A stretch of 48,971 nt of DNA from an uncultured Lachnospiraceae bacterium. Lineage in GTDB: Bacteria > Bacillota > Clostridia > Lachnospirales > Lachnospiraceae. The stretch's first letter is position 1, and every line of letters begins with the position of its first letter. The notes under the pieces were generated by a model. That model was given only the letters and a program-made list of their open reading frames with translations, had not been told where the DNA came from and searched no databases. Both the position numbers and the translations under genes were made by a program. This document shows, piece by piece, positions 6,487 through 32,250 of the stretch. The stretch is taken from positions 1-48,971 of the forward strand of contig CANPZZ010000002.1 in assembly GCA_947589125.1 (NCBI GenBank). Direction: 5' to 3'.

Positions 6487-7308
6487 ATGAAGCATGATTA
6501 TTACTACTATACAAAGGACCAGCTTCTGGCGGCGCCGAAGATCCCGGTAGAGGTCATGGCGGATAACGCCGCCGTGTTTTCAGCCATCGCCAGGGAAATG
6601 GCGGACGAGATCATCCGCAAAAACACTCTGGGCGAGCGGACGGTATTTATTTGCCCGGTGGGGCCTGTGGGCCAGTATCCGTATTTTGTGGATATCGTGA
6701 ACCGGGAAAGGATCAGCCTTAAGAACGTCTGGTTCATCAACATGGACGAGTATCTGACCGATGCGAAGGAGTGGATCGACGCGTCCGAGAAGCTGAGTTT
6801 TCGCGGTTTTATGAACCGGACGGTCTACACGAAAGTCGATCCGGAGCTGGTAATGCCGGCTGAGCAGCGCATTTTTCCGGATCCGAAGGATGTGGAAAAT
6901 GTACCCCGGATGATCGAGAAGCTGGGCGGCGTGGATATCTGCTTCGGCGGCATCGGCATTAACGGTCATCTGGCGTTTAACGAAGCGCAGGACGAACTGA
7001 CGCCGAAGCAGTTCAAGGCGCTGAAGACGCGGGTGCTGACGATCAGCAGGGAGACCCGGACCGCCAATGCCATCGGCGACTTGAACGGCGCTTTGGACGA
7101 TATGCCCCATTACTGTGTGACCATCGGCATGAACGAGATCTACCATGCGAAGAAGATCCGTCTGGGATGCTTCCGCGACTGGCACAGAAGTGTGGTCCGG
7201 CACGCGGTGTACGGCGAGGTATCGGCGCATTTCCCGGTGACGCTTCTGCAGGAGCATCCGGATGCGTTGATCCGGATCACGGAATTTGTGGCGGAGCTGC
7301 CGGAATGA
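6487..7308 (+). CDS. nagB: Glucosamine-6-phosphate deaminase-like protein (divergent NagB family)
   Basis: This 273-residue NagB/RpiA-fold protein would convert glucosamine-6-phosphate to fructose-6-phosphate and ammonia. D87 (NMDEYL), N159, H161 and E166 (GINGHLAFNE) occupy the active-site positions. It is divergent: the usual ATGSTP phosphate loop reads PVGPVGQYP (58-66), the PG after FNE is missing, and the VEGPVT region reads YGEVSAHFPVT. A different aldose or amino-sugar phosphate is possible. The ATG at 6466 lies within the GGAGGGA ribosome-binding site, so translation most likely starts at 6487. It is 27 bp after the LarA-like gene. Its last 65 bases are the first copy of an 88-bp repeat. 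Confidence 0.75.
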   Translation: MKHDYYYYTKDQLLAAPKIPVEVMADNAAVFSAIAREMADEIIRKNTLGERTVFICPVGPVGQYPYFVDIVNRERISLKNVWFINMDEYLTDAKEWIDASEKLSFRGFMNRTVYTKVDPELVMPAEQRIFPDPKDVENVPRMIEKLGGVDICFGGIGINGHLAFNEAQDELTPKQFKALKTRVLTISRETRTANAIGDLNGALDDMPHYCVTIGMNEIYHAKKIRLGCFRDWHRSVVRHAVYGEVSAHFPVTLLQEHPDALIRITEFVAELPE

Positions 7309-7507
7309 ATTGCTGAGAAGGCGGAAGAAAGTTCTGCAGGCTCATCCGGATGCGTTGGTCCGGATCACGGAATTTGTGGTAGGACTGCCGGAATGAACTG
7401 TTGAGAAGGCGGCGGAAAGTTTTGCAGGCTCATCCGGATGCGTTAATCCGGATCACGGAATTTGTGGCGGGACTGCCGGAATGAATTGCCGAGAAGGCAG
7501 AGGAAGG
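7244..7507. repeat. 88-bp tandem repeat, 3 copies, including the nagB stop codon
   Basis: Copies begin at 7244, 7332 and 7420. The first is the 3' end of nagB plus 23 bp beyond the stop. The downstream copies still spell near-identical peptides, HPDALVRITEFVVGLPE and HPDALIRITEFVAGLPE, each ending in TGA. As 88 is not a multiple of three, these are non-coding echoes of the gene end. The array fills the gap before nagA. Confidence 0.95.
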
Positions 7508-7543
7508 GCGTATGCCGCATACAGCGGCATATAAAGGAGAGAA

Positions 7544-8695
7544 ATGAATAAGGACGAGTTCTATATTGTAAACGGCGAAGTATATATCGAGGGACATTTT
7601 ATAAAAACGACCCTTCATATCGCTGACGGAAAGGTCTTTCTCTGCCGCGAGGACGCGCCCGCAGGCGCAGAGTGCGTGGACGCGGCGGGCAAAAAGATCG
7701 TTCCGGGATTTATCGATATTCATACCCATGGCGCGGTCGGTGTCGATGTCAACGGTGCGACGGCGGAGGATTTAAGAAAGATCGGCCGCTTTTTTGCCGG
7801 AAACGGCACCACCTCCTGGCTGATGTCGGTTCTGACCGATACGAAGGAGCAGACGGAGTGGTGCATCGACCAGTTTAAGGAGATGGATCAGTCCCCCTGC
7901 GACGCGGCGCAGCTTCTGGGCATCCATCTGGAGGGACCGTTCCTGGCGAAAGAGTATAAAGGAGCCATGCCGGAACATCTGCTTAAGAAGCCGGATGCGG
8001 CGCTGGTGCTTGATTATCAGAACCGGGCGGAAGGCAATATCCGTTACATTACCATCTCGCCGGAGGTGGAGCGTGCTGTGGAACTGATCCCGGAACTGAC
8101 GGCCCAGGGTATCGTGACGGCCATCGGCCATTCCGGCGCGGATTATGCGACGGCCATGGCGGCCATTCAGGCCGGTGCCGCCTGCAGCACCCACACATTT
8201 AACGCTATGCGGCTCCTGCACCAGCATGAGCCGGCCATTCTGGGAGCGGCGCTGGAGAGCGATATCTACTGCGAAATGATCTGCGACGGCTTCCATCTGC
8301 ATCCGGGGATCGTGAGGCTTCTCTGGAAGGTGAAGGGGCCCCGCAGGCTGATCGCCATTACGGACTCCATCATGGCGGCCGGGCTTCCCGACGGATTCTA
8401 TCATCTGGGCGTCAACGAGGTTGTCGTCAAGAACAGCGACGCGAAGCTGGTCAGCGATGGAACCCGGGCAGGCAGTACGCTGAACCAGAACCGGGCACTT
8501 AAGAATATCCTGAAATTTACCGGGCGGCCCCTGGAGGAGGTTCTGCCGGTATTCACCGAGAATCCGGCCCGGCTGATCGGCGTGTGGGACAGAAAGGGTT
8601 CCATCTCGGACGGAAAGGACGCGGATCTTGTGATGCTGGACGGGGAGATGAACGTGGCGGGAGTTTTCCTGCGCGGAAAGAGATTCGAAGCTTGA
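7544..8695 (+). CDS. nagA: N-acetylglucosamine-6-phosphate deacetylase
   Basis: The 383-residue amidohydrolase removes acetate from GlcNAc-6-phosphate to give glucosamine-6-phosphate, the NagB substrate. Visible motifs are GFIDIHTHG (H60, H62), HLEGPF with the metal-binding glutamate, AIGHSGADY, STHTFNAMRLLHQHEP, CDGFHLHP for substrate binding, and the catalytic aspartate in ITDSIMAAG. Length fits the family. AAAGGAGAG lies just before the ATG. A strong terminator follows directly, so it closes the six-gene cluster. Together with nagB, pfp, fba and tpiA it forms a continuous route from GlcNAc-6-phosphate to glyceraldehyde-3-phosphate. Confidence 0.93.
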   Translation: MNKDEFYIVNGEVYIEGHFIKTTLHIADGKVFLCREDAPAGAECVDAAGKKIVPGFIDIHTHGAVGVDVNGATAEDLRKIGRFFAGNGTTSWLMSVLTDTKEQTEWCIDQFKEMDQSPCDAAQLLGIHLEGPFLAKEYKGAMPEHLLKKPDAALVLDYQNRAEGNIRYITISPEVERAVELIPELTAQGIVTAIGHSGADYATAMAAIQAGAACSTHTFNAMRLLHQHEPAILGAALESDIYCEMICDGFHLHPGIVRLLWKVKGPRRLIAITDSIMAAGLPDGFYHLGVNEVVVKNSDAKLVSDGTRAGSTLNQNRALKNILKFTGRPLEEVLPVFTENPARLIGVWDRKGSISDGKDADLVMLDGEMNVAGVFLRGKRFEA

Positions 8696-8697
8696 GG

Positions 8698-8740
8698 AAA
8701 TGCCTGTTTCTGCCGGATATTGGCGGGGACAGGCATTTTT
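8698..8740 (+). terminator. Intrinsic terminator after nagA
   Basis: AAATGCCTGT pairs with ACAGGCATTT across a 21-base loop that has its own CTGCC/GGCGG pairing. The stem runs into TTTTT at 8736-8740. Confidence 0.85.
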
Positions 8741-8760
8741 GTGCGATTCGCGTTTCTGCA

Positions 8761-8789
8761 TTGACTTTAAAGAGGAGGAAAGCTATAAT
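8761..8789 (+). promoter_or_regulatory. Promoter of the gtrA-yfhO pair
   Basis: TTGACT (8761-8766), a 17-bp spacer, then a perfect TATAAT (8784-8789). It lies directly behind the nagA terminator and 33 bp before the gtrA ATG. Confidence 0.85.
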
Positions 8790-8821
8790 TGGAGAATACT
8801 GGGTTTTTATGAGGTGATGGC

Positions 8822-9280
8822 ATGTTTGCGAAGATCTGGAAGAAATTCGTCAACCGGGAGTCGGTAACCTATATCATATTTGGTGTACTGACGACAGCGG
8901 TTGACTGGGTTACCTACGCAGTGCTGTGGCGGCTGGGAACGGATTACCGGGTCTCCACGGCGCTTAGTTGGGCGGCCGCGGTTTTGTTTGCGTTTGTCAC
9001 CAATAAGCTGTTTGTGTTCCGAAGCTTTGAATTCCGGCCGGCCCTTCTGTGGAGGGAGTTTTCCGGATTTGTGGCGGCCAGGGCGGCGACAGGCGTATTT
9101 ACGATGGTGGCCATGATCGTCATGGTGGATGGTTTAAGATGGAATGAGTTTCTGGGGAAACTGGTGGTATCGGCCATTTCCCTGGTGTTAAATTATATAT
9201 TCAGCAAGTGGTTTATTTTTAAGAAGACGGAGAAGAAGACCGCAAGTGCTGGAGAGTCTGGAGGGACAGAAAGACCTTAA
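8822..9280 (+). CDS. GtrA-family membrane protein
   Basis: A 152-residue protein with four predicted membrane helices (roughly residues 15-37, 45-65, 80-102 and 113-133) and a basic C-terminus. The N-terminal YIIFGVLTTAVDW and the NKLFVFRS and NYIFSKWFIF segments are typical of the GtrA family. Members help move or flip lipid-linked sugars for surface polysaccharide or teichoic-acid glycosylation. GAGGTGATGGC precedes the ATG. The neighbour yfhO acts in the same kind of process, supporting a cell-envelope role. The exact sugar is unknown. Confidence 0.85.
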   Translation: MFAKIWKKFVNRESVTYIIFGVLTTAVDWVTYAVLWRLGTDYRVSTALSWAAAVLFAFVTNKLFVFRSFEFRPALLWREFSGFVAARAATGVFTMVAMIVMVDGLRWNEFLGKLVVSAISLVLNYIFSKWFIFKKTEKKTASAGESGGTERP

Positions 9281-9413
9281 GCCACGGGGAAATCGGCGTG
9301 GGGGAGGAGATCGCAAGCACCGAAGAATCCAACGTGGGGAAAAGAATGTAAACGTCAGAAAATCCGGCGGAGAGACAGATGGGGAGCGTGCCCGGAGGGC
9401 ATGATTAAAGAAG

Positions 9414-12400
9414 ATGGAATCGGATGAGATCAGGAAAACATCGGAGGAACTGGAAAAATTGCTGAAGGAATATGAGGAAGGCGCCTTAAAAGAATATTAC
9501 GATCTGGATAAGGTGAGCGCTTCGGACGAGGATTATGAAGGCGATGAGACTTCAGAGCCGGAGGCAGACGGCGCGGATACGCGCGGCGGTTTGAAAGCCG
9601 GCCGGGAATCGGAAAAATTTGAGAAATACCACGCTTTTGAGGAAGAATTTGAATCGAAAAAATTTGAGAAATACCATGCTTTTGAGAAAGAATTCGAATC
9701 GGAAGAATACGAGGCGGAAGATGATTTTGATCCAGAAGCGGAATATGATCCGCAGACGGATCGTGACGCAGAGGATTCGTATGATTCGGAAGCTGCGTCA
9801 GATACAGACGGATCAAAAGCGGTTAAGGAAGAGGGCTTTAAGGAACCAGGCAGTATTCCGGCATCCCGCAGCAAAGAGGCCCGAAAAGAGCGTAGAAAGG
9901 CCGGACAGACCGACACGGGCCTTCTGAATCTGTCCGGCGGCATGGGGCTGGCGGCAGCGTTTCTGATGCCAGTGTTGGTCATGATACTCGTTTTTGTTCA
10001 GAGAGGGATATTTCCTTTCGGCGACAAGTCTTTTCTGCGCACCGATATGTATCACCAGTACGCTCCGTTTTTCTCGGAGTTCCAGTACAAGCTGACGCAC
10101 GGTGGCAGCCTGCTCTACAGCTGGGACGTTGGCCTTGGCGTGAATTTCTCGGCGCTTTTCGCCTACTATCTGGCCAGTCCCTTAAACTGGCTGCTGGTTC
10201 TGTGCCCGAAGCTGTATGTGATTGAGTTTATGACCTATATGATCGTCTTAAAGATCGGGCTTTCCGGGCTGTCCTTTACGTATTACCTTCACCGCCACAG
10301 CGGACGCAGCGATTTCGGCGCGGCGTTTTTCGGTATTTTCTATGCGCTGTCCGGCTATATGGCGGCCTATAGCTGGAATATCATGTGGCTGGACTGCATC
10401 CTGCTGTTCCCATTGGTCATGCTGGGACTGGAGAATCTTGTAAAGAAACGCCGCGGCATACTTTACTGTGTGTGCCTGGGGCTGTGCATTCTGTCCAACT
10501 ACTATATCTCGATCATGATCTGTATCTTCATGGTGATCTATTTCGCGGCGCTTCTGATCCTGGAACACAGGAAAGGCAAGGGCTTCAGAGACTATGCTGT
10601 GAATATCGTCCAGTTTGGCGGCTGCTCCCTGGCGGCCGGCGGTCTGGCGGCCGTAGTGCTGCTGCCGGAGATCTATGCGCTGCAGGCGACGGCTTCCAGT
10701 GATTTTAATTTCCCGAAGACATTTACGTCTTATTTTTCCATTTTTGATATGTTCGCCCGCCATATCGGCAATATCGATGTGGAGATCGGACTGGATCACT
10801 GGCCCAATATCTACTGCGGAGTGGCTGTGCTGATGTTTTTCCTGCTGTATCTGGGCTGCAGGCAGATATCGGTGAAGCACAAGGCGGTGTACCTGAGCAT
10901 GATGCTCTTCTTCTTCGCCAGCTTCTCCATGAATACGCTGAATTTTATATGGCACGGGTTTCATTATCCCAACAGTCTTCCCTGCCGCCAGTCTTTCATT
11001 TATATCTTCCTGATGCTATATGTCTGTTATGAGGCCTACAGTCATCTTCACGAGATGGAGGAAGGACAGATTGGCCGGGCCTTCTTCGGTTCCGTGGTCT
11101 TTGTGATCCTGGCGGAGAAGCTGGTGGAGCAGGAACATTTCGAATTCTATATGTTCTATCTGGCGATCATTCTGCTGGCAGTCTATGCAGGACTGGTCTG
11201 GCTGTATAAGCAGGGGAAGATGGATCTTAGTCTTCTGCTTCTGCTGGCGCTGGCTGTGGTGACGGAGGAAGCGGCGACCAATACGATGTTTACCAGCGTG
11301 ACCACCACCAGCCGTTCCGCCTATATCCGCGACAACGAGGATGTGCGGACGCTGGTGGAGCAGATCCCTGCGGATGAAGGTTTCTACCGGATCGAGAAGG
11401 TGACCAGGAAGACGAAGAATGACGGCGCATGGATGAATTTCCCGACGGTGTCCCTGTTCTCTTCCACGGCTAATGCGGATCTGACGGCGTTTGTGAAGAC
11501 CATGGGCTGTGAGGGAAGCGTTAATGCCTACAGCATCACAGGCAGCACGCCTCTGGTGGATTCGCTGCTCGACGTCCGCTACGGACTGTATTCGGAGGAG
11601 CAGAACACGGACGAAGACAGGCTGCAGCTGGTAGGCCAGTCCGGAGACACCTGGCTTTATAAGCGGTATTTTACGCTGCCGCTGGGCGTTATGTTCCCGG
11701 ATTATTTCGACAGCGAATGGGTTCGCGACCAGAATAATCCGGCCCTGGTGCAGAATTCTTTCTGCAAAGGCGTCGGCGCCGATCCCGTGCTGGTGGATGT
11801 GGGCGGCGAGAATATGGGGGACAATTTCCGGTTCACGGCGGATATGGACGGCGATTATTACGTCTATATTTCCAATAAAAAGGTAGAGAAGGCTGAAGTC
11901 AGTAAGGACGGCGAAAGTCTCAGCTTTGACAATGTGAACCGCGGTTATCTGCTGGAGATCGGCTGGTGCAGATCCGGACAGACGGTTACGGTCAACGGCG
12001 AAGAAGGCGGCGTAAATCTGGACGCTTACGCCTACCGCTTCTCGAACGACGCGTTGAAGCAGGTGTATAATACCCTGATCCGCTATCCGTTCGAGGTGAC
12101 GGACTGGACGGATAACACGGTAGACGGCGTGGTCACTACGGAGAAAGACGGAGTTTTGTTCACCAGTATTCCTTATGATAAGGGCTGGACGGTGCTCCTG
12201 GACGGTGTCGAGACAGAGACGGAGAAGATATTTGACGCTTTCTTAAGCTTCCGCGTGCCGCCAGGGACCCATACGGTCAGCATGCGCTATGTGCCTCAGG
12301 GACTTACGGCCGGCGCGGCGGTGACCGTCGTGAGCGCGGCGGCGGTACTTGCGGCGGCGCTGATCGGATATGCGGCTGGAAAAAAGAAGAAACGCCTGCG

Positions 12401-12428
12401 CGGCAGAGGAGACGCGGACGAGGAGTAG
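9414..12428 (+). CDS. YfhO-family integral membrane protein with acidic repeat N-terminus
   Basis: The 1004-residue protein has a long acidic cytoplasmic tail (1-165), then about a dozen membrane helices from residue 180 on (first helix AAAFLMPVLVMILVF), a large extracellular region (about 630-970), and a last helix near 975-993 followed by KKKKRLRGR. YFDS, TSYFSIFDMFARH and the C-terminal FTSIPYDKGW belong to the YfhO family, which is linked to lipoteichoic-acid and glycolipid glycosylation. The tail contains a 15-residue tandem repeat (68-97). The start has only a weak AAAGAAG. The TAG stop lies in a 33-bp repeat that stays in frame with argH. The acidic tail is an addition that ordinary YfhO proteins are not expected to have. 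Confidence 0.85.
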   Translation: MESDEIRKTSEELEKLLKEYEEGALKEYYDLDKVSASDEDYEGDETSEPEADGADTRGGLKAGRESEKFEKYHAFEEEFESKKFEKYHAFEKEFESEEYEAEDDFDPEAEYDPQTDRDAEDSYDSEAASDTDGSKAVKEEGFKEPGSIPASRSKEARKERRKAGQTDTGLLNLSGGMGLAAAFLMPVLVMILVFVQRGIFPFGDKSFLRTDMYHQYAPFFSEFQYKLTHGGSLLYSWDVGLGVNFSALFAYYLASPLNWLLVLCPKLYVIEFMTYMIVLKIGLSGLSFTYYLHRHSGRSDFGAAFFGIFYALSGYMAAYSWNIMWLDCILLFPLVMLGLENLVKKRRGILYCVCLGLCILSNYYISIMICIFMVIYFAALLILEHRKGKGFRDYAVNIVQFGGCSLAAGGLAAVVLLPEIYALQATASSDFNFPKTFTSYFSIFDMFARHIGNIDVEIGLDHWPNIYCGVAVLMFFLLYLGCRQISVKHKAVYLSMMLFFFASFSMNTLNFIWHGFHYPNSLPCRQSFIYIFLMLYVCYEAYSHLHEMEEGQIGRAFFGSVVFVILAEKLVEQEHFEFYMFYLAIILLAVYAGLVWLYKQGKMDLSLLLLLALAVVTEEAATNTMFTSVTTTSRSAYIRDNEDVRTLVEQIPADEGFYRIEKVTRKTKNDGAWMNFPTVSLFSSTANADLTAFVKTMGCEGSVNAYSITGSTPLVDSLLDVRYGLYSEEQNTDEDRLQLVGQSGDTWLYKRYFTLPLGVMFPDYFDSEWVRDQNNPALVQNSFCKGVGADPVLVDVGGENMGDNFRFTADMDGDYYVYISNKKVEKAEVSKDGESLSFDNVNRGYLLEIGWCRSGQTVTVNGEEGGVNLDAYAYRFSNDALKQVYNTLIRYPFEVTDWTDNTVDGVVTTEKDGVLFTSIPYDKGWTVLLDGVETETEKIFDAFLSFRVPPGTHTVSMRYVPQGLTAGAAVTVVSAAAVLAAALIGYAAGKKKKRLRGRGDADEE
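9615..9704 (+). repeat. 45-bp in-frame repeat, 2 copies, in the yfhO tail
   Basis: KFEKYHAFEEEFESK (residues 68-82) is followed by KFEKYHAFEKEFESE (83-97). The DNA period is exactly 45 bp with few differences. More degenerate E/D-rich units follow, so the acidic tail probably grew by repeat expansion. Confidence 0.92.
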
Positions 12429-12608
12429 AACCGCGTCGGAAAGGTTACGGACGAGGAGCAGGACCACCGCGGAGAAGATGCGGACGAGGAGTAGGACCGC
12501 CGCGGAGAGGACGCGGGTGAGGAGCAGGACCACCGCGGAGAGGATGCAGGTGAGGAGCAGGACCGCCGCAGAGAGGATGCGGATGAGGGGCAGGCCATCA
12601 GGAAGAAC
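12411..12608 (+). repeat. 33-bp tandem repeat, 6 copies, spanning the yfhO stop codon
   Basis: Units start at 12411, 12444, 12477, 12510, 12543 and 12576. Each encodes an acidic 11-residue unit like DEEQDHRGEDA in the yfhO frame. The glutamine codon CAG in copies 2, 4, 5 and 6 is TAG in copies 1 (12426, the yfhO stop) and 3 (12492). The same frame continues without other stops into argH at 12660. Confidence 0.95.
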
Positions 12609-12659
12609 CGTCGCGGGGATATGACCAGGCAAAGGAAAGACGGAGAGGAGAATCACACC

Positions 12660-14036
12660 ATGAAATTATGGGGCGGACGTTTTACGAAGGAAGAGAATCA
12701 GGCGGTACATGAATTCAACGAGTCCCTGTCATTTGACCGGAGGCTTTACCGCCATGACATCATGGGAAGTATCGCCCATGTGAAGATGCTGGCGAAGCAG
12801 GGGATCGTATCGGAGGAAGACCGGGATGCGATCATTGCCGGACTGGAAGGAATCCTTAAGGATATCGAAGAAGGAAAACTGGAATTTACGAAGGAACACG
12901 AGGATATCCATTCCTTCGTGGAGGCGAACCTGACGGAGCGTATCGGCGAGGCCGGGAAGCGCCTCCACACGGGGCGCAGCCGCAACGACCAGGTGGCCCT
13001 GGATATGAAGCTTTACTGCCGGGATCAGGCGGATGAGATAAGCGGTCTGGTGAAGGAACTGGAGCAGGTCCTTCTTGGCGTCATGGAAACGAATTTGGAG
13101 ACCTATATGCCGGGCTTCACCCATCTGCAGAAGGCCCAGCCGGTGACCCTTGCCCACCATGTGGGAGCGTATTTTGAAATGTTTGAGCGCGACCGGGGAA
13201 GGCTTGCCGATCTCCGGAAGCGGATGAACCAGTGTCCCTTAGGCGCCGGCGCCCTGGCCGGGACCACCTATCCGTTGGACCGGGAATATACGGCGCAGCT
13301 GCTGGAATTTGACGGCCCTACCTATAACAGTATGGATTCGGTGGCGGACCGGGATTACCTGATCGAGCTTTTAAGCGCTCTTTCTGTCATCGCCATGCAC
13401 CTGAGCCGTTTCTGCGAGGAGATCATCCTCTGGAACAGCAATGAGTACCGGTTCGTGGAGATTGACGACGCCTACAGTACCGGCAGCAGTATCATGCCCC
13501 AGAAGAAGAACCCGGATATCGCGGAATTGGTCCGCGGTAAGACGGGGCGGGTTTACGGGGCGCTTATGTCCCTGCTGACTACGATGAAGGGTATTCCGCT
13601 GGCTTACAATAAAGATATGCAGGAGGACAAGGAGGTGGCCTTCGACGCCATTGACACGGTGAAGAACTGCCTTACGCTTTTTACCGGCATGATCTCGACC
13701 ATGACCTTCCGAAAGGATGTGATGGCCGCCAGCGCGAAGAACGGCTTTACCAACGCCACGGACGCGGCGGATTATCTGGTGAATAAGGGCGTGCCTTTCC
13801 GGGACGCCCATGGCATTGTGGGCCAGCTCGTACTGTACTGTATCGATAAAGGGATTGCGTTAGACGATATGAGCCTGGAGGAGTATAAGGCTGTCAGCCC
13901 GGTATTTGAAGAGGATATTTACGACGCGATCTCTCTTAAGACCTGTGTGGAGAAGCGCACCATCATAGGCGCGCCGGGTCCGGAGGTTATGAAAAAGGTG
14001 ATCGAAGCCTGTCGGGAACGGCTTGCCGGAGAGTAA
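12660..14036 (+). CDS. argH: Argininosuccinate lyase
   Basis: The 458-residue enzyme splits argininosuccinate to arginine and fumarate, the last step of arginine synthesis. The family signature GSSIMPQKKNPD, the N-terminal LWGGRF, the HEDIHSFVE and TGRSRNDQVALD segments and the LDREYTA region are all present. The ATG at 12660 follows GAGAGGAG; an ATG at 12621 in the same frame adds 13 residues but has no ribosome-binding site and the protein family starts at KLWGGRF. No argG is adjacent, so the gene is separated from the rest of the pathway. Its stop codon starts a 23-bp repeat array. Confidence 0.95.
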   Translation: MKLWGGRFTKEENQAVHEFNESLSFDRRLYRHDIMGSIAHVKMLAKQGIVSEEDRDAIIAGLEGILKDIEEGKLEFTKEHEDIHSFVEANLTERIGEAGKRLHTGRSRNDQVALDMKLYCRDQADEISGLVKELEQVLLGVMETNLETYMPGFTHLQKAQPVTLAHHVGAYFEMFERDRGRLADLRKRMNQCPLGAGALAGTTYPLDREYTAQLLEFDGPTYNSMDSVADRDYLIELLSALSVIAMHLSRFCEEIILWNSNEYRFVEIDDAYSTGSSIMPQKKNPDIAELVRGKTGRVYGALMSLLTTMKGIPLAYNKDMQEDKEVAFDAIDTVKNCLTLFTGMISTMTFRKDVMAASAKNGFTNATDAADYLVNKGVPFRDAHGIVGQLVLYCIDKGIALDDMSLEEYKAVSPVFEEDIYDAISLKTCVEKRTIIGAPGPEVMKKVIEACRERLAGE

Positions 14037-14142
14037 CAGCGGAACCGCGGAAAAAGTTATAGCGGAACCGCGGAAAAATTAACAGCGGGACCGCAGAAAA
14101 AGTAATAGCGGAATCGCGGAAAAATTAACAGCGGGATCGCGG
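14034..14142. repeat. 23-bp tandem repeat, about 4.7 copies, after argH
   Basis: AGCGG units begin at 14038, 14061, 14084, 14107 and 14130; the unit reads roughly AGCGGAACCGCGGAAAAATTAAC. The first TAAC contains the argH stop codon. The array fills the whole gap to the convergent AraC gene and ends at that gene's stop codon. CCGCGG in most units could pair, but there is no classic terminator. Confidence 0.95.
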
Positions 14143-16445: not shown

Positions 16446-17312
16446 ATGAAGAATCTGCATAAAACATGGTTTGATTATCTGCTGATAGTGTTTTTTGTCT
16501 TCATCCTGATCATCACGCTGTATCCGTTCATCAACGTGCTGGCGATCTCGTTCAACGACGCGACGGATACGATGAAGAACATTAATTTCGTCATTCCGCG
16601 GAAGTTCACGATCACGAACTATAAGTACGTGTTCGAAGAGGGCGGGATCGTGATGCCGCTGTTCATCTCCATTGCCAAGACGGTCATCGGTACGCTGCTG
16701 GGCGTCATCTGCACCGCGATGCTGGCCTATACCCTGAGCCGTCAGGATTTCGTCGCCCACAAGCTGTTCACGATGATCTTCGTCGTGACCATGTACGTCG
16801 GCGGCGGTATGATTCCCGAGTACCTGCTGATCATGCGTACCCTGCACCTGGGCAATAACTTCCTGGTCTACATCCTGCCCGGTCTGGTCTGGGTCTATAA
16901 CATGATCCTGGTCCGTTCCTTCATCGACGGCCTGCCCCTGGCCCTTCAGGAAGCGGCCCGTATCGACGGCGCCAACGACTTCCAGATCTGGTATCAGGTG
17001 GTAATGCCGCTCTGTACCCCGGTTCTGGCGACCATCGCCCTGTACTACGCGGTAGGCCAGTGGAACTCCTTCATGGATACCTACCTGTACGCCAAGGATT
17101 TAAAGACCCTGCAGTTCAAGCTGTATGAGATCATGTCCCAGGCGACGATGCAGCTGGATACCCACAATGTCAACAATACCAACCAGGCGGTCACCCCGAT
17201 GGCGATCCGTATGGCGGTCACCGTCGTGGCTACGGTTCCGATCATCATCGTGTATCCGTTCGTACAGAAGTATTTCGTCGGCGGCATGACGCTGGGCGCG
17301 GTGAAGAACTGA
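16446..17312 (+). CDS. Carbohydrate ABC transporter permease, YtcP-like
   Basis: A 288-residue second permease subunit with about six membrane helices; the EAA loop reads EAARIDGANDFQIWY, followed by MPLCTPVLATIALYY. It pairs with the preceding gene to form the membrane channel. TTAGGAGGTGG lies before the ATG. Its last 28 bases, including the stop codon, are the first unit of a 35-bp repeat. Substrate is inferred from the following glycoside hydrolases. Confidence 0.92.
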   Translation: MKNLHKTWFDYLLIVFFVFILIITLYPFINVLAISFNDATDTMKNINFVIPRKFTITNYKYVFEEGGIVMPLFISIAKTVIGTLLGVICTAMLAYTLSRQDFVAHKLFTMIFVVTMYVGGGMIPEYLLIMRTLHLGNNFLVYILPGLVWVYNMILVRSFIDGLPLALQEAARIDGANDFQIWYQVVMPLCTPVLATIALYYAVGQWNSFMDTYLYAKDLKTLQFKLYEIMSQATMQLDTHNVNNTNQAVTPMAIRMAVTVVATVPIIIVYPFVQKYFVGGMTLGAVKN

Positions 17313-17389
17313 CAGAAAGCATGACGCCGGGCGCGGTGAAGAACTGACAGAAAGCATGACGCCGGATGCGGTGAAGAACCGGCAGAAAT
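17285..17389. repeat. 35-bp tandem repeat, 3 copies, including the permease stop codon
   Basis: CATGACGCYGG units start at 17285, 17320 and 17355. The first encodes the permease C-terminus MTLGAVKN and stop. TGA is kept in copy 2 and becomes CGG in copy 3. The copies lie in different frames (35 is not a multiple of three), so they are not coding. Confidence 0.95.
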
Positions 17390-24935: not shown

Positions 24936-25017
24936 GATTGAGGGTTTGCAGGCGTGATGTGGTCGCGGACGGTCCGCGTCCGGCGGACTGTCTGCATGTT
25001 CCTCAGGATTCAGGACG

Positions 25018-25135
25018 GAAGTGCTTCTAAGTTCACAGCAATTTGTTAAAAGCATCACGAAAAATGAACAACTCGCTTCGCTCAAACAAGTCCATTTTTC
25101 GTGATAACACAAATTACTGTTCACTAAGAAGCACT
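25018..25135. repeat. Large imperfect inverted repeat, MITE-like
   Basis: AGTGCTTCTAAG starts the left arm and CTAAGAAGCACT ends the right. Paired blocks include AGTGCTTCT, a CAGYAATTTGT block and ATCACGAAAAATG, with CTCGCTTCGCTC in the centre. Homology of the flanks (ATTCAGGACGG against the complement of CCGTTCTGAAAT) may extend the element to about 25005-25152. It has the look of a non-autonomous mobile repeat or a long RNA hairpin. No transposase is near. Confidence 0.7.
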
Positions 25136-25182
25136 AACCGTTCTGAAATTCGGAACCTGTAGACAGTCTGCCGGGCGCTGGG

Positions 25183-25275
25183 GATCGGCTTGCGGATGGT
25201 CTGCGGGATGCCGGAAGATCGGCTTGTAGACAGGCTGTGGAACAGCGAGGATCGGCTTGCAGGCGGGCCGGATGT
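25183..25275. repeat. Degenerate 33/34-bp tandem repeat, 3 copies
   Basis: GATCGGCTTG recurs at 25183, 25217 and 25250, with related GRCAGKCTG sequence in between. It is more diverged than the other arrays in the window. Confidence 0.7.
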
Positions 25276-25341
25276 GAAACAAAAGATGTAACAGAAGCCG
25301 GAAGGCAGAAGAATAATTAAAAACAACAGGAGGGTAACAGA

Positions 25342-27975
25342 ATGGCGAAGTTTCATGCATCGACGTCCTCGGTGGTAAGTGAGCGCGAGGTCAGGAACAT
25401 GGAGAGGGCGAGGAAGATCGCGTCGCAGGGCATGGTGCTTCTGGAGAACGCGGGAGCGCTGCCGCTTAAGGCGGAGACGAAGAAAGTGGCGCTTTTCGGA
25501 AACGGCGGACGCAGAACCATCAAGGGCGGTACCGGATCGGGCGACGTGAACAGCCGGGAAGTGGTGAACGTGGAGCAGGGGCTGGAGGCCGCGGGGCTGA
25601 CCGTTACCACGAAGGACTGGCTTGACCGGTATGACCGGGTGGTCGAGGCGGCGCGGACGGAGTATTTCGCGAATTTCGCGAAGAAGGTCGCGGCGGAAGG
25701 CGGTTCTGCGGTGATGGAGCTGTTCAATAATCCGTTCATGGAGCCGGCGATCATTCCAGTGACGAAGGAGGATATGGATGCGTCGGAGACGGACACGGCC
25801 ATCTATATCGTGTCCCGCAATTCCGGCGAGGGTAAGGACCGGGCTCCGGTCAAAGGCGATTTTGAGTTGTTTGAGGTGGAGGAAGAGGCGGTCAGGGCCC
25901 TGACTTCCTGCTATAAGAACGTGATCGTAGTGCTGAACGTGGGCGGCGTGCTGGATACCCGCTTCCTGCGCGGTACAAAGGGAATCGGCGCGGTCCTTCT
26001 GATGAGCCAGGCGGGGAATATCGGCGGCTATGCGCTGGCGGACGTGCTTCTGGGCAGGGTGACGCCCAGCGGACACCTGGCGACTACGTGGGCCGAGCAG
26101 TATTCGGATTATCCGGGAGCTATGAATTTCAGCCATGTGAACGGAGATGTGAACGACGAGTATTACAAGGAGGGGATCTACGTCGGATACCGGTATTTCG
26201 ATACGTTCGGCGTGGCGCCCGCCTATCCGTTCGGTTATGGAAAATCGTATACGGATTTTGCCATAGAATGCAAATCCGTAACCGTAGATGGCAATCAGGT
26301 TACAGTTACCGCAGAGGTTACCAACATCGGCGCCGTTTATTCCGGCAGGGAAGTGGTGCAGGTTTACTATTCGGCTCCGCAGGGTGCGCTGGAGAAGCCC
26401 TATCAGGAGCTGGCGGCCTACGCGAAGACGAAGCTTCTGGCTCCCGGCGAGGCGCAGACGCTTACGATTGGTTTTAAGGTGACGGAAATGGCTTCCTACA
26501 GCGAGGCAAAGGCGGCCTATGTGCTGGAGCCGGGCACTTACTATGTGCGCGTGGGCGATCACTCCCGGGCGACGAAGGTGGCGGCGGCCCTTGTCGTTGA
26601 GAAAGAAGTGGTGACGGAGAAGCTGGCCAACTATCTGAAGCCGGATGTGGAGATGGAAATGCTCTCCTCCGCGGGCGCGAAGCCTTACACCTATGAGGGT
26701 GAGGAAGCGGAAAAGGCAGCGGCCCCGAAGCTGGCAGTCGATGCGGAGAAGCTTCCCTGCTTCACAGCGGTCTACACTCCCATCGGCGCAGGAGAGCAGC
26801 CGGAGCCGGATACCAATGGACACAAGATCACGATGGATGAGGTGAAGGCCGGAACCTACACATTGGACGAACTGGTAAATCAGCTGACCGTGGAGGAGAT
26901 GGCGACGCTGTGCGTTGGTACGGCGAGGGGCGGCTTCGGCGGCGAATCGGTGATCGGCTCCGCGTCGGCGGCATGTCCGGGCGCGGCCGGCGATACCACA
27001 TCCCTGATGCTTCCCGACCGCAATATCCGCAATATGATCCTGGCGGACGGACCGGCAGGACTGCGCCTGTCTACCCATTTCGTCGTGGATCACGACGGCA
27101 GCCAGATCCCGGGGACCGGGGACGCGCCGATTCCGGGTATGGAGCTTCTGACCGCGGGTGCGCCAAAGCCGGAGATCCCGGACGACGCGACCCATTATTA
27201 CCAGTACTGTACGGCGATCCCGATTGCCACGCTTCTGGCCCAGACCTGGGATGTGGAAGCGATCGCGGCGGCCGGAGACATTGTGGGCGAGGAGATGGAG
27301 GAGCTGGGCGTGACATTGTGGCTGGCCCCTGGCATGAACATCCACCGCAACCCGCTGTGCGGCCGGAATTTCGAGTATTATTCCGAGGACCCGCTGGTCG
27401 CCGGAATGTGCGCGGCGGCGGACACGCTGGGCGTGCAGAAGCATCCGGGCGTGGGCACGACGATCAAGCATTTCGCCTTCAATAACCAGGAGGATAACCG
27501 GATGCATACCAACGCTCATGTAAGCGAGCGGGCGGCCCGCGAGATCTACCTGAAGGGCTTTGAGATCGCGGTGAAGCGTTCCCAGCCCATGTCGATCATG
27601 ACATCCTATAACCTGGTCAACGGCCTCCACACCGCCAACAGTTATGAGCTTCTGACGGCGATCGCCCGCCAGGAGTGGGGCTTTAAGGGCTTTGTGATGA
27701 CCGACTGGGGCACCACGGGATCCATCGAGATGGAGCCGGGCAAGACCTTCAAGTACGGCTGCTCCAACGCGGCCGGCTGCGTGAAAGCGGGCAATGATCT
27801 GACCATGCCGGGCAGCCAGAACGACGTGGACGAGATCGTGAAGTCCGTGGGCGCGGCGGAAGGAGAAGTAGAATACCCGCTGACTCTGGGCGAGCTGCGC
27901 GCGGCGGCGAAGAGGATCCTTTCCGTCGTCATGGTAAGTTCGGTGTATGAGGGAGCAAAGCCGTACACGGGCTGA
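25342..27975 (+). CDS. Circularly permuted GH3 beta-glucosidase-type enzyme
   Basis: The 877-residue cytoplasmic protein carries GH3 domains in reversed order. The alpha/beta C-domain comes first (about 15-300: SQGMVLLENAGALPL, YPFGYGKSYTDF), then a fibronectin-III-like domain (about 320-420), a linker (about 430-510), and the catalytic barrel last (about 520-865: LADGPAGLR, APGMNIHRNPLCGRNFEYYSEDP, TIKHFAFNNQEDNR). Nucleophile D788 lies in VMTDWGTTGS. This order is known from Ruminococcus albus and Butyrivibrio beta-glucosidases. It would cleave beta-glucosides released by the other enzymes here. CAGGAGGGTAACAG precedes the ATG. Confidence 0.92.
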   Translation: MAKFHASTSSVVSEREVRNMERARKIASQGMVLLENAGALPLKAETKKVALFGNGGRRTIKGGTGSGDVNSREVVNVEQGLEAAGLTVTTKDWLDRYDRVVEAARTEYFANFAKKVAAEGGSAVMELFNNPFMEPAIIPVTKEDMDASETDTAIYIVSRNSGEGKDRAPVKGDFELFEVEEEAVRALTSCYKNVIVVLNVGGVLDTRFLRGTKGIGAVLLMSQAGNIGGYALADVLLGRVTPSGHLATTWAEQYSDYPGAMNFSHVNGDVNDEYYKEGIYVGYRYFDTFGVAPAYPFGYGKSYTDFAIECKSVTVDGNQVTVTAEVTNIGAVYSGREVVQVYYSAPQGALEKPYQELAAYAKTKLLAPGEAQTLTIGFKVTEMASYSEAKAAYVLEPGTYYVRVGDHSRATKVAAALVVEKEVVTEKLANYLKPDVEMEMLSSAGAKPYTYEGEEAEKAAAPKLAVDAEKLPCFTAVYTPIGAGEQPEPDTNGHKITMDEVKAGTYTLDELVNQLTVEEMATLCVGTARGGFGGESVIGSASAACPGAAGDTTSLMLPDRNIRNMILADGPAGLRLSTHFVVDHDGSQIPGTGDAPIPGMELLTAGAPKPEIPDDATHYYQYCTAIPIATLLAQTWDVEAIAAAGDIVGEEMEELGVTLWLAPGMNIHRNPLCGRNFEYYSEDPLVAGMCAAADTLGVQKHPGVGTTIKHFAFNNQEDNRMHTNAHVSERAAREIYLKGFEIAVKRSQPMSIMTSYNLVNGLHTANSYELLTAIARQEWGFKGFVMTDWGTTGSIEMEPGKTFKYGCSNAAGCVKAGNDLTMPGSQNDVDEIVKSVGAAEGEVEYPLTLGELRAAAKRILSVVMVSSVYEGAKPYTG

Positions 27976-28161
27976 CATAGATCGGCGGCTGGCTGGTTAT
28001 CACATTGATAAGCAAGCAGGAAGGTGCAGCAGTCGTGTTGGAAGATAGGCCGCGCTATAGGATACTCGTATACAAGAAGAAAACGTGACGGCATCCGCAG
28101 CAGAAAATGTGTCCGCGTCCGGGCGGGCGAACGGCTGCGTTAGCGGCAGGAAACAGAATGA

Positions 28162-28200
28162 TTCCCCGCCTGTCGGTATTTCGGCAGGCGGGGATATTTA
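28162..28200 (+). terminator. Intrinsic terminator between GH3 and spo0A
   Basis: CCCCGCCTGTCG pairs with CGGCAGGCGGGG (one U-G pair) over a GTATTT loop, with an extra T-A pair outside, followed by the T-rich TATTTAT. It ends the sugar locus and isolates spo0A. Confidence 0.85.
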
Positions 28201-28213
28201 TCTGCCCTAAACT

Positions 28214-28220
28214 TGTCGAA
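28214..28220. promoter_or_regulatory. 0A box (Spo0A binding site)
   Basis: TGTCGAA is an exact match to the core 0A box. It is centred about 57 bp upstream of the predicted spo0A transcription start, a position suited to autoregulation. Confidence 0.65.
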
Positions 28221-28238
28221 ACTTGCGATAGAATCCAT

Positions 28239-28267
28239 TTGCACCTGCATTTCTGCAAGTTTATAAT
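28239..28267 (+). promoter_or_regulatory. spo0A promoter
   Basis: TTGCAC (28239-28244), 17 bp, and perfect TATAAT (28262-28267). The leader is about 60 bp. No convincing sigma-H promoter was seen, though AnnGAAT-like AATCC sequence is nearby. Confidence 0.65.
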
Positions 28268-28336
28268 CGAAATATCACCGTAACTGTCCCCGATAATTAT
28301 TTTGCAGTTACAGACTAACCCAAAGGAGGACAAATC

Positions 28337-29149
28337 ATGACACCAACTCTAAGCGTAGCAATCGCTGAGGACAACCCGAAAACATTAGATCTCCTGAATC
28401 AGATGCTGTCTGGCGAGGATGGCATCCAGATCGTAGGGAAAGCAGAGACAGGCGATGAAGCCTATGAGATGATCGTCTCCACCAAGCCCGACGTCGTCCT
28501 CCTGGACGTGATCATGCCGGGCATGGACGGACTTACGGTCATGGAGAAGGTGAAGAACGAAGAGAAACTGGCTAAAAAGCCGTCATTTATCATGGTTTCC
28601 GCGGCAGGAAGCGAAAATGTAACGGAGGACGCGTTCCGTCTGGGCGCCAACTATTTTATCATGAAGCCGTTTACCCGCGAGGTGGTCGTGGACAAGGTCC
28701 GCCGTCTGGCCGGCTACGCGGCGAAGCCCAGGGGACTTGCCCTGCCGCATTCCCGCAAGATCCGCCCTTACGAGAATCAGGTGGAATACATGGAGCAGAA
28801 TCTGGAAAATGACGTTACCCAGATCCTGCACGAGATCGGCGTGCCCGCACATATCAAGGGCTATCAGTATCTGCGGGACGCGATCATTTCCTCCGTCTGC
28901 GACCAGGATATGCTGGCGTCGGTGACAAAGGTGCTTTATCCGAATATCGCCAAGAAACATCAGACTACGCCCAGCCGCGTCGAACGCGCGATCCGCCATG
29001 CCATCGAGGTGGCCTGGAGCAGGGGCAAAATGGATACGATCAATGAAATATTTGGCTACACAGTCAGCAACGGCAAGGGCAAGCCGACCAATTCTGAGTT
29101 TATCGCATTACTGTCCGATAAGATCCGGCTGGATTATAAACGGATGTAA
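28337..29149 (+). CDS. spo0A: Sporulation master regulator Spo0A
   Basis: A 270-residue response regulator. The receiver domain (1-125) has acidic pocket E11-D12, phosphorylation site D57 in [11 protein letters not shown], and K in FIMKPF. The output domain (about 150-270) has the conserved Spo0A DNA-binding helix in [17 protein letters not shown]. After phosphorylation it binds 0A boxes and starts sporulation. AAAGGAGG precedes the ATG. The gene is transcribed alone from its own promoter. In many clostridia spoIVB lies directly upstream; here a glycoside hydrolase gene and terminator do instead. Confidence 0.97.
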
Positions 29150-29156
29150 TTCATGA

Positions 29157-29189
29157 CAGCAGGAGGTCTGCCCGGCGTACCTGCTGCTG
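29157..29189 (+). terminator. Possible weak terminator after spo0A
   Basis: CAGCAGGAGGT can pair with ACCTGCTGCTG (one mismatch) over an 11-base loop. Only TTGG follows, so termination would be weak or factor-dependent. Confidence 0.4.
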
Positions 29190-29256
29190 TTGGAAAATCT
29201 GACAAACTTCACATAAAACTTCTAAGAATGTACTTCCTAATTCGGAAAAAGTATTG

Positions 29257-29262
29257 TATACT
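29257..29262 (+). promoter_or_regulatory. -10 element of the glgA promoter
   Basis: TATACT in TTGTATACTATA. The best -35 at 17 bp is TTCCTA (29234-29239), which is weak. A leader of about 120 bp with strong secondary structure would result. Confidence 0.5.
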
Positions 29263-29273
29263 ATATCTGCAAG

Positions 29274-29332
29274 GGGTTTATATCGTACTGCGCGGCATAG
29301 CTGCGGCTTTTTTGCCGCGCAGTGTTTAAACC
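29274..29332 (+). promoter_or_regulatory. Structured leader of glgA with alternative hairpins
   Basis: ACTGCGCGGCA (29287-29297) pairs perfectly with TGCCGCGCAGT (29313-29323), and the flanks GGTTTA/TAAACC extend it. Within it GCGGC-TTTTTTT-GCCGC can form a competing inner hairpin. Both precede the glgA ribosome-binding site. It might be an attenuator or just a terminator for upstream transcription. Confidence 0.5.
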
Positions 29333-29388
29333 GGTCCGTGGGGTAAAGGGCCGGCGTCAGTTTTTTCCAATCACAGGAGGGTTCATTC

Positions 29389-30831
29389 ATGAAGAAGATC
29401 TTATTTGTCGCGTCTGAGGCAGTTCCATTTGTTAAGACCGGAGGGCTGGCGGATGTAGCCGGTTCTCTCCCGAAGTGTTTCAATAAGGAATATTATGATG
29501 TCCGCGTCATGCTTCCCAAGTATATGTGCATGAAGCAGGAATGGAAGGACAAACTGAATTATATCGACCATTTCTATATGGACTATCTGGGGCAGAGCCG
29601 TTATGTAGGCATTCTGCTGTACGAGTACGAGGGCATCAAGTTCTATTTCATCGACAATGAGTGGTATTTCAACGGCAGTACCCTGTACGGCGACTGGCTG
29701 TACGATCTGGAGAAATTCTCCTTCTTCTGCAACGCGGCGCTTTCGGCGCTTCCGGTCATCGGTTTCCGGCCGGATGTGATCCACTGCCACGACTGGCAGA
29801 CGGGTCTGATCCCGGTGTACTTAAAGGACCGTTTCGCCGGCGGCGAGTTCTTCCGCGGCATCAAGAGCGTCATCACGATCCATAACCTGAAGTTCCAGGG
29901 CATCTGGGACGTGGATACGATCAAGAGGCTTACCGGCCTGTCCGATTACTATTTTACGCCGGATAAGCTGGAAGCGTATAAGAACGGCAATCTGTTAAAG
30001 GGCGGCATTGTCTACGCCGACGCGATCACTACGGTCAGCAACACCTACGCCGAGGAGATCAAGATGCCGTTCTACGGCGAGAACCTGGACGGCCTGATGC
30101 GCGCTCGGGCCAACAGCCTGCGGGGCATCGTCAACGGTATCGACTACGAGGAATTCAATCCGGAGACCGACGAGTATATCGTGGCCCATTATAACGCCCA
30201 GACCTTCCGCAAGGAGAAGATCAAGAACAAGAAGGCTCTGCAGAAGGAACTCGGGCTGGAAGAGGATGAGAAGCTTATGATGATCGGCATTGTCTCCAGG
30301 CTGACCGATCAGAAGGGCTTCGATCTGATCCAGTATGTGATGGACGATCTGTGCCACGACGCGGTCCAGCTGGTGATCCTGGGTACCGGCGAGGAGCGCT
30401 ATGAGAATATGTTCCGCCATTTCGCCTGGAAGTATCCGGGCAAGGTGTCGGCCAATATCTACTATTCGAATCCGCTGTCCCACAAGATCTACGCGGCCTG
30501 CGACGCGTTTTTGATGCCGTCGCTGTTCGAGCCCTGCGGCCTGAGCCAGTTAATGTCCCTGCGGTACGGGACGCTTCCTATCGTCCGGGAGACCGGCGGA
30601 CTTAAGGATACGGTACAGCCGTACAATGAATATGAGGGCACCGGCACCGGGTTTTCCTTCGCCAACTATAACGCCCATGAGATGCTGGGCACGATCCGCT
30701 ATGCGGAGCGGATCTATTACGACAGGAAGCGCGAGTGGAACAAGATGATCGACCGGGCCATGGCCCAGGATTTCTCCTGGAACGCATCGGCGCTTAAGTA
30801 CCAGGAACTGTACGACTGGCTGATCGGATAG
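29389..30831 (+). CDS. glgA: Glycogen synthase (ADP-glucose type)
   Basis: This 480-residue GT5 glycosyltransferase extends alpha-1,4-glucan chains from ADP-glucose. KTGGLADV (16-23) binds ADP-glucose; HCHDWQTGLIP, ITTVSNTYAEEI, GIVSRLTDQKGFDL and the C-terminal SLFEPCGLSQL are family markers. CAGGAGGG precedes the ATG. No other glg gene is adjacent, so glycogen genes are split in this genome. Glycogen storage is often tied to sporulation in clostridia, so its position next to spo0A is suggestive but not proof. The genes that follow on the same strand are closely spaced. Confidence 0.95.
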   Translation: MKKILFVASEAVPFVKTGGLADVAGSLPKCFNKEYYDVRVMLPKYMCMKQEWKDKLNYIDHFYMDYLGQSRYVGILLYEYEGIKFYFIDNEWYFNGSTLYGDWLYDLEKFSFFCNAALSALPVIGFRPDVIHCHDWQTGLIPVYLKDRFAGGEFFRGIKSVITIHNLKFQGIWDVDTIKRLTGLSDYYFTPDKLEAYKNGNLLKGGIVYADAITTVSNTYAEEIKMPFYGENLDGLMRARANSLRGIVNGIDYEEFNPETDEYIVAHYNAQTFRKEKIKNKKALQKELGLEEDEKLMMIGIVSRLTDQKGFDLIQYVMDDLCHDAVQLVILGTGEERYENMFRHFAWKYPGKVSANIYYSNPLSHKIYAACDAFLMPSLFEPCGLSQLMSLRYGTLPIVRETGGLKDTVQPYNEYEGTGTGFSFANYNAHEMLGTIRYAERIYYDRKREWNKMIDRAMAQDFSWNASALKYQELYDWLIG

Positions 30832-30846
30832 ATTCGGCAGGAGAAG

Positions 30847-30869
30847 CGGGGGCGGCGTTCGTGCCCCCG
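30847..30869 (+). other. Hairpin in the glgA-PAP2 gap
   Basis: CGGGGGC and GCCCCCG pair over a 9-base loop. No T-run follows. It may lower read-through or stabilise the upstream mRNA. Confidence 0.45.
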
Positions 30870-30896
30870 GCGAGACATAAGAGAGATGGTGGGATT

Positions 30897-31355
30897 ATGG
30901 GTGTATGGCAGGAACTCTTAAGCAATCAGATTCTGGTCAGCGCGGTGGTGGGCTGGACAGTGGCCCAGGTTCTTAAAACATTGATCGATATGGGATTTAA
31001 CAGGTCCTTCCGGCCGGAGCGGCTGGTGGGTTCCGGCGGTATGCCCAGCTCCCATTCGGCTACCGTATGCGCCCTGACGGTGGCGTCCGGCATGAAGTAC
31101 GGCCTGTCCTCGTTTGAATTCGCGGTCAGCTTCGTGCTGGCGAGCGTGGTCATGTATGACGCCATCGGCGTTCGGCAGGAGACCGGCAAGCAGGCCAGGC
31201 TTCTGAACCTGATCGTGCAGCAGGATTGGTTCAGGCTGGACAATCAGGAGGTAGAGAAAAGACTGAAGGAATTTGTGGGGCATACGCCGCTGCAGGTATT
31301 CGCCGGGGCGCTGCTGGGTATCCTGATGGCGGTCCTGGTGAATATGGCGTATTGA
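30897..31355 (+). CDS. Divergent PAP2 family membrane protein (DUF212, YuiD-like)
   Basis: A 152-residue protein with three or four membrane segments and the family motif GSGGMPSSHSATV (about 46-58), in which serine and histidine recall acid phosphatase/vanadium haloperoxidase enzymes; also YDAIGVRQETGKQA. Members are predicted membrane phosphatases, but biochemical function is not established. The ATG at 30897 follows GAGAGATGGTGGG; an upstream ATG at 30861 has no good signal. The gene lies 65 bp after glgA and 27 bp before the phosphatase gene, probably one operon. Confidence 0.85.
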   Translation: MGVWQELLSNQILVSAVVGWTVAQVLKTLIDMGFNRSFRPERLVGSGGMPSSHSATVCALTVASGMKYGLSSFEFAVSFVLASVVMYDAIGVRQETGKQARLLNLIVQQDWFRLDNQEVEKRLKEFVGHTPLQVFAGALLGILMAVLVNMAY

Positions 31356-31382
31356 CCGCAGAGTTATTCTTAGGAGATTTTG

Positions 31383-32171
31383 ATGATCAGGCTAATCGCT
31401 TCAGACATAGACGGTACATTGGTAAGAGACGGTTCCCACGAGATAAATCCGCGGATCTATGACGTGATCGCAAAGCTGCATGCCGGCGGCGTCCAGATCG
31501 CGCTGGCCAGCGGACGCCAGTGGGTCAGCATTGAGAGGCTGTTTGCGCCGGTGAAGGAGAAGATTTTTTATATTTCCGACAACGGCGCCTATGTGGGCTG
31601 TCATGGCCGGCGTTTGTTTCTGAATTATTTCGACCGGGAGCTGGCTATGGAGATGGTGGAGGATATCCGCCGGCAGCCGGGGCTGGAGTATATGGTCAGC
31701 GGCCCGGACGCAGTGTATCTCGATACGAAGGACAGGGATTTTCTGGATCTGCTCACTTATGGTTACCGTTTCGCCATGGAGAAGATGGACGATGTGACGG
31801 AGATGACGGAGCCGGTCATCAAGATGGCGGTCTACTGCGGCGCCGGCGGCATCGAGAAGAAGACGGAACAGCTGAGGGGGAGATACGCGGACCGTCTTCA
31901 TGTTATGGTATCCGGTGATAAGTGGGTGGATTTTGTGATGCCCGGCGTCAGTAAGGGCTGGGGGATTGAACGGCTTCAGGAGGATCTGGGAATCAGTCCG
32001 AAGGAGACCATGGCCTTCGGGGACCAGCAGAATGATGTGGATATGCTGAAGAAAGCCTACTACAGCTTCGCGGTGGGGAACGCGGTGCCGGAGGCGAAGG
32101 CCGCGGCCCGGTTCGCGGCGGATAATAATGTGGATGACGGTGTGCTGAAGATATTGAAACTGCTTGTATGA
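31383..32171 (+). CDS. HAD-superfamily Cof-type phosphatase
   Basis: The 262-residue protein has HAD motif I in ASDIDGTLV (D9, D11), motif II around LASGRQ, a C2-type cap in the middle, and motif IV GDQQNDVDML. The Cof/IIB subfamily removes phosphate from sugar phosphates and flavin or other small metabolites; the substrate here is unknown. The ATG at 31383 follows TAGGAG; a TTG at 31380 directly before is less likely. The last 21 bases belong to a duplicated 35-bp segment. Confidence 0.88.
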   Translation: MIRLIASDIDGTLVRDGSHEINPRIYDVIAKLHAGGVQIALASGRQWVSIERLFAPVKEKIFYISDNGAYVGCHGRRLFLNYFDRELAMEMVEDIRRQPGLEYMVSGPDAVYLDTKDRDFLDLLTYGYRFAMEKMDDVTEMTEPVIKMAVYCGAGGIEKKTEQLRGRYADRLHVMVSGDKWVDFVMPGVSKGWGIERLQEDLGISPKETMAFGDQQNDVDMLKKAYYSFAVGNAVPEAKAAARFAADNNVDDGVLKILKLLV

Positions 32172-32250
32172 GACGCAGGAAAGAGTCCTGGGGCTGCGGG
32201 ATATCGAGTACCTGAATATTGAAACTGCTTGTATAAGACGCAGGAAAGAG
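32151..32250. repeat. 35-bp direct repeat, 65 bp apart, including the phosphatase stop codon
   Basis: ATATTGAAACTGCTTGTATG... (32151-32185) recurs at 32216-32250 with one change, TGA to TAA shifted in sense so that the second copy reads TGT ATA AGA. The first copy is the end of the Cof-type gene; the second is in the leader of the next gene. Confidence 0.92.

Follow-up and report, generated by a model that had tools for sequence, protein, structure and literature searches.

Stop-copying tandem arrays in an uncultured Lachnospiraceae bacterium are probably locus-private minisatellites

We analysed tandem arrays that copy the stop codons of genes in a 48,971-nt stretch of DNA from an uncultured Lachnospiraceae bacterium (contig CANPZZ010000002.1 of assembly GCA_947589125.1), the whole of which is referred to below as the window. 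These arrays are probably minisatellites private to their loci, resembling variable-number tandem repeats (VNTRs) and arising from random duplication on which selection has acted as a filter. No special mechanism would thus be needed for tandem arrays to copy stop codons, as geometry and selection together yield about the observed rate. Arrays were called with Tandem Repeats Finder (TRF), and gene ends were taken from a simple purpose-written gene caller. The survey covered 833 kb of the window's own genome (including the window and amounting to about a third of that genome) and stretches of other members of the genus, approximately 2.8 Mb in total. The window's genome, G000, is a 2.5-Mb draft of 219 contigs that is 88% complete and probably metagenome-derived. 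The genus comparison consisted of 26 draft genomes, one per species, so that variation was seen between species and not strains. The nearest relative is a sister species (G017) with approximately 95% DNA identity and a 97% identical ArgH. The outgroup comprised 57 argH-neighbourhood loci from other, mostly clostridial genomes and contained few arrays; one of these loci (L033) coincides with the contig of the genus member G007, and its omission leaves 56 loci. Several surveyed arrays are orthologous to one another, and the counts are therefore not fully independent.

Arrays at gene ends in the window

The following features, all on the forward strand, were identified by gene calling, TRF and inspection of the sequence.

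6466..7308, +, nagB-like gene (glucosamine-6-phosphate deaminase-like; gene call, below the NCBIfam nagB cut-off and with no Pfam hit)
7244..7505, +, nagB-like array, period 88, 3.0 copies (TRF, sequence)
9414..12428, +, YfhO-family membrane protein gene (gene call, PF09586)
12406..12594, +, YfhO array, period 33 (66), about 5.5 copies of 33, containing the TAG stop (TRF, sequence)
12660..14036, +, argH, argininosuccinate lyase (gene call, TIGR00838)
14032..14142, +, ArgH array, period 23 (46), containing the argH TAA (TRF, sequence)
16446..17312, +, ABC-type permease gene (gene call, PF00528)
17284..17388, +, permease array, period 35, 3.0 copies, containing TGA (TRF, sequence)
31383..32171, +, Cof-type HAD hydrolase gene (gene call, TIGR00099)
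32150..32250, +, Cof direct repeat, two copies of about 35 bp at a 65-bp offset (sequence; no TRF array)
35818..35846, +, weak stop-spanning array, period 15, 1.9 copies (TRF)
2500..2682, +, intergenic array, period 54, 3.4 copies, beginning 17 bp past a stop (TRF)
48265..48362, +, intergenic array, period 18/36, touching no stop (TRF)

The initial annotation had described five arrays in which the end of a gene is repeated together with its stop codon. This description holds for the nagB-like, YfhO, ArgH and permease loci but not for Cof, where merely a 35-bp direct repeat is present and the other 30 bp of the 65-bp offset do not match. It had also missed three arrays, namely the weak stop-spanning one at 35818-35846 and those at 2500-2682 and 48265-48362, which touch no stop. 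The final 65 bp of the gene, TGA included, and flanking DNA make up the first copy of the nagB-like array. The ArgH array sits between convergent genes, with just the final 3-5 bp of argH lying within it, and the third copy of the permease array no longer contains the TGA. According to TRF, copies within the window's arrays diverge from one another by approximately 8-18%. The window also contains arrays inside genes, at 9606-9708 (45 bp) and 37638-37773 (36 bp).

Private units and copy number among relatives

Four queries, comprising the nagB-like array with its flanks, the post-stop parts of the YfhO and ArgH arrays and the whole permease array, each matched their own locus alone in the draft genome (E <= 0.001); no query covered the repeats at Cof, 2500 and 48265. 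The earlier proposal that the units do not derive from one mobile repeat was thus borne out for the four units searched, none of which recurs at many loci as a dispersed mobile repeat or a mycobacterial interspersed repetitive unit (MIRU) does. Searched against Rfam, the window and five loci yielded a tRNA in L175 and a 6S RNA in L245 as the sole matches, both lying outside the arrays.

Copy number changes between the species. Up to 32.9 kb the window and the sister species are collinear, with aligned blocks at 90-97% identity, and the latter has a single unit at the nagB-like locus where G000 has three. Its permease array has 2 copies versus 3. The YfhO array measures 189 bp in G000, about 64 bp in the sister species and about 123 bp in G010; the corresponding lengths for ArgH are 109, about 39 and about 8 bp. 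The 2500-2682 array is absent from the sister species, the 48265-48362 array is shortened from 98 to about 62 bp, and the Cof direct-repeat pair is unchanged. When 90 arrays were queried against the relatives, an orthologous place was found for 27 in the genomes sampled, and array length differed at 9 of the 10 loci that could be compared between G000 and the sister species. Separately, the segment at 9539-9856 of the window, around the in-gene array at 9606-9708, falls between the blocks that align with the sister species.

Assembly error might be suspected in a draft of so many contigs. It is a very improbable source of the arrays, as the copies differ mutually by about 8-18% and, in separate draft genomes, the same sites hold arrays of different copy number.

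The junction between yfhO and argH was followed in 19 other genomes of the genus. The gap is shorter than 15 bp, or the genes overlap, in nine genomes, and it is 40-52 bp long and free of arrays in six. In the sister species it spans about 100 bp with just a weak array of 12-bp period, and clear arrays are present in G010 (period 33), G023 (period 36) and G019 (period 31). The occurrence of array-free gaps beside arrays of differing periods indicates that arrays have extended these junctions on several occasions or in various forms.

These properties are those of bacterial minisatellites. Head-to-tail units of 10 to more than 100 bp are found in the four named cases and not at Cof, and copy number varies among close relatives at the 9 of 10 loci noted above, that is, between two species. 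Degenerate head-to-tail copies of 15-130 bp whose number varies between close relatives are common to both; the differences from usual VNTRs are that variation was seen here between species rather than strains and that density in this clade is high. A comparable junction is rnc-fpg1, a MIRU-VNTR junction of the Mycobacterium tuberculosis complex (ETR-F/VNTR3239), which measures 6-54 bp in the other mycobacteria shown and amounts to 279-358 bp of repeats in tandem in the complex (PMC2734929). At both rnc-fpg1 and yfhO-argH a short junction appears to have grown by tandem repeats. MIRUs are described in the same account as scattered over many loci (PMC2734929), unlike the four units searched here, which are unique. 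No title among those listed by literature searches concerns stop-spanning arrays in this group, which is no proof of their absence.

In the same paper, the length of the rnc-fpg array is reported to tune downstream expression (PMC2734929), and this precedent favours the idea that array length here is kept because it adjusts, at operon junctions, how strongly the downstream gene is expressed, through spacing or RNA structure. The yfhO-argH junction, with its arrays of different periods in several species, would fit such a role, as would the ArgH array, which folds better than its shuffled versions (z -3.8), and the nagB-like unit, which does so somewhat (z -2.1). We nevertheless regard this role as rather unlikely: four of six folded arrays or units have z values between -0.3 and -1.4, tandem units that are partly palindromic fold well by construction, 15 of the 19 relatives have no array at all at the yfhO-argH junction, and copy number is not conserved.

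Reading frame and placement relative to stop codons

Selection has left a mark on where arrays of a given period occur. Among arrays inside genes, 147 of 151 have periods that are multiples of three, versus 7 of the 24 that span a stop, and the stop-spanning class thus behaves as non-coding DNA. Arrays that span a start codon are depleted in the genus sample (2 versus 15.9 expected, score of at least 60).

The same figures bear on the suggestion that spare stop codons were selected as a guard against read-through, which would suit the fact that all four arrays copy a stop. The period is not divisible by three in 17 of the 24 stop-spanning arrays, and the extra stops in the window are mostly out of frame or lost. 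At the nagB-like locus and, in 46-bp steps, at ArgH the copied stops occupy phases 0, 1 and 2, at the permease they occupy phases 0 and 2, and the Cof pair, at its offset of 65, is out of frame. At YfhO, the sole in-frame case, TAG is kept in two of six copies and CAG is found in four. Selection for spare stops is therefore excluded as a general cause and is extremely improbable as an explanation of these arrays.

The preferred reading, random duplication with a selective filter, can be put as follows. Tandem duplications of about 15-130 bp would arise along the chromosome by replication slippage or unequal exchange, and their copy number would thereafter change fast. Inside genes nearly only periods divisible by three would be retained and across starts almost none, and between genes and across stops duplications would be free to persist, presumably as neutral changes. 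A stop-spanning duplication would be tolerated because the gene remains whole, stop included, in the first copy. Where genes are separated by a short gap, which may be the older state, a duplication 30-90 bp long has to reach into the end of the gene, so that the stop would be copied by geometry.

Placement was evaluated with a model in which the unit of each non-coding array is placed uniformly within its own ancestral gap; arrays inside genes, around an entire gene, at an open gene edge or with no gene on one flank were excluded. At a score of at least 60, 24 of 105 arrays in the genus sample span a stop versus 20.5 expected (p=0.19), and 20 of 99 versus 18.0 without the window (p=0.31). The window alone gives 5 of 8 versus 2.6 (p=0.035) at a score of at least 50 and 4 of 6 versus 2.5 (p=0.16) at a score of at least 100, p-values that are optimistic in that the window was chosen for its stop-spanning arrays. 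The idea, drawn from five cases in 49 kb, that a process acts at gene ends is thus not supported by the genus sample, in which stop-spanning arrays occur at the rate of random placement. The comparison of array starts with stop codons that had been called for, when run on approximately 2.8 Mb, divided in its outcome: the stop-spanning count is that of random placement, but array edges are apparently not uniform relative to stops.

Several observations, this apparent non-uniformity among them, weigh against random placement. At a score of at least 60, 24 of 94 edges lie 0-20 bp after a stop versus 11.4-12.6 expected (p<=0.0006), and at a score of at least 100 the count is 18 of 69 versus 8.2-9.1, an excess that plain random placement does not predict. 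A looser cut (score of at least 50, without the later-added G010 and G021 stretches) gives 23 stop-spanning arrays versus 17.6 (p=0.07), or 18 versus 15.0 once the window is removed (p=0.21). Five intergenic or stop-spanning arrays are gathered within 15 kb of the window, more densely than elsewhere in the sampled genome (2500-17388; p=0.017 among 28 arrays versus a uniform distribution). Finally, the microhomology expected of slippage is not significant, as a 6-bp repeat comparable to that of the nagB-like locus occurs at 115 of the 370 gene ends of the sister species.

Short-junction tandem duplications are known to arise by slippage or illegitimate recombination. The arrays resemble these in that their unit ends belong to no known element and in that TGCAGG occurs near both ends of the nagB-like unit, at an offset of 91 in the single-copy sister species; they differ in that the short-repeat signature lacks significance given its frequency at other gene ends. 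TGCAGG was accordingly rejected as evidence for the nagB-like duplication.

The pile-up of edges could reflect a process just after stop codons, where ribosomes leave and the bare nascent RNA could form R-loops or stall replication, leading to slippage 0-20 bp downstream. In its favour, the 24 edges observed are about twice the roughly 12 expected, and the edge rate is 0.90 per kb at 0-20 bp after the stop versus 0.24-0.33 per kb at 20-110 bp. Outgroup edges show the same tendency (4 of 15 versus 1.6 expected, p 0.05-0.06; 57 loci, of which L033 belongs to the genus). On the other hand, the 0-20 bp bin was picked post hoc and the count of 24 of 94 includes the data in which it was found; the G010 and G021 stretches, fetched after that choice, have 2 of 17 edges in the bin versus 1.3-2.1 expected, so the excess is not seen in this small set. 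A weak residual periodicity extends into the genes (mean rank 0.32 versus 0.5, 22 arrays), and part of the pile-up may therefore be the remains of old arrays that spanned the stop, in which the coding part was preserved and the other copies diverged until the two no longer matched. Gene-end arrays are purine-rich relative to general post-stop DNA (0.62 versus 0.55, p=1.7e-7), and purine content is lower in arrays at a greater distance from the stop (0.564, p=0.0008). Compared with array-free codirectional gaps there is no purine excess (0.646, n=31, versus 0.631, n=491; p=0.33), and R-loop-type composition was therefore rejected as a special feature. Replication-transcription conflict, which the initial annotation had proposed, fares no better: GC skew at third codon positions of the 41 host genes matches that of other genes (0.106 versus 0.113, p=0.69), so that nothing indicates head-on conflict and head-on host genes were rejected as a factor. 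On balance, a post-stop process is unlikely. It is quite unlikely that, in this Lachnospiraceae-like clade, a lineage-specific process duplicating preferentially in the first 20 bp after stops raised the density of intergenic minisatellites about eightfold and loosened formerly compact operons. If the pile-up holds on complete genomes, it would connect the end of translation to duplication.

Array density and a dispersed hairpin repeat

Density, expressed as non-coding arrays of score at least 100 per Mb, is 33.6 in G000 (28 arrays in 833 kb), 77 in G010 (16 in 207 kb) and 50 in G023 (11 in 220 kb), followed by G012 (27), G016 (26), G017 (23), G019 (17) and G021 (14). The 120 kb sampled from G005 and the 116 kb from G007 contain no array, with an upper 95% limit that remains about 31 per Mb, and ten further genomes of the genus gave one array in a pooled 162 kb. 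The whole genus sample contains 77 arrays in 2770 kb, or 27.8 per Mb (with one codon model; 80 arrays with per-group models), and the argH neighbourhoods of the genus alone contain 14 in 340 kb. The 56 argH neighbourhoods of the outgroup have 4 arrays in 1069 kb, or 3.7 per Mb, a density that is the same with or without L033. The genus density is thus roughly eight times that of the other sampled, mostly clostridial loci, and is not what chance alone would give. MutS1 is above the cut-off in 22 of 26 genomes, including G000 and G017, and MutS2 in 25 of 26; RecJ is above it in G017, G010, G012 and G023 and was not detected in G000, which is incomplete (88%). Loss of mismatch repair as the cause of the high density was accordingly rejected as far as these three proteins go. 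The genome of G019, which is 99% complete, has no MutS1 match above the cut-off, its lone match falling in its MutS2 gene. A clade with many fast-changing intergenic arrays may offer useful strain markers and a test bed for the growth of operon junctions.

The genus also has a dispersed 39-bp hairpin repeat, single or in tandem, that consists of a TTTCCATG lead, an 11-nt arm, a CCAGTGA-type loop and a second 11-nt arm. It was located at the following sites.

L132, 16257-16381
L133, 15766-15894
L139, 948-1028
L175, 11579-11659
L189, 19414-19535
L241, 4273-4379
L245, 12081-12202, lying 34 bp after the 6S RNA match

A scan for the motif found none in the window and none in the other sampled loci, and the repeat has no Rfam match at the gathering threshold in the five loci searched. 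Of the 308 stem cells in the 28 different stems, 281 are paired, compared with a mean of 247 and a maximum of 259 for shuffled arms (1000 trials).

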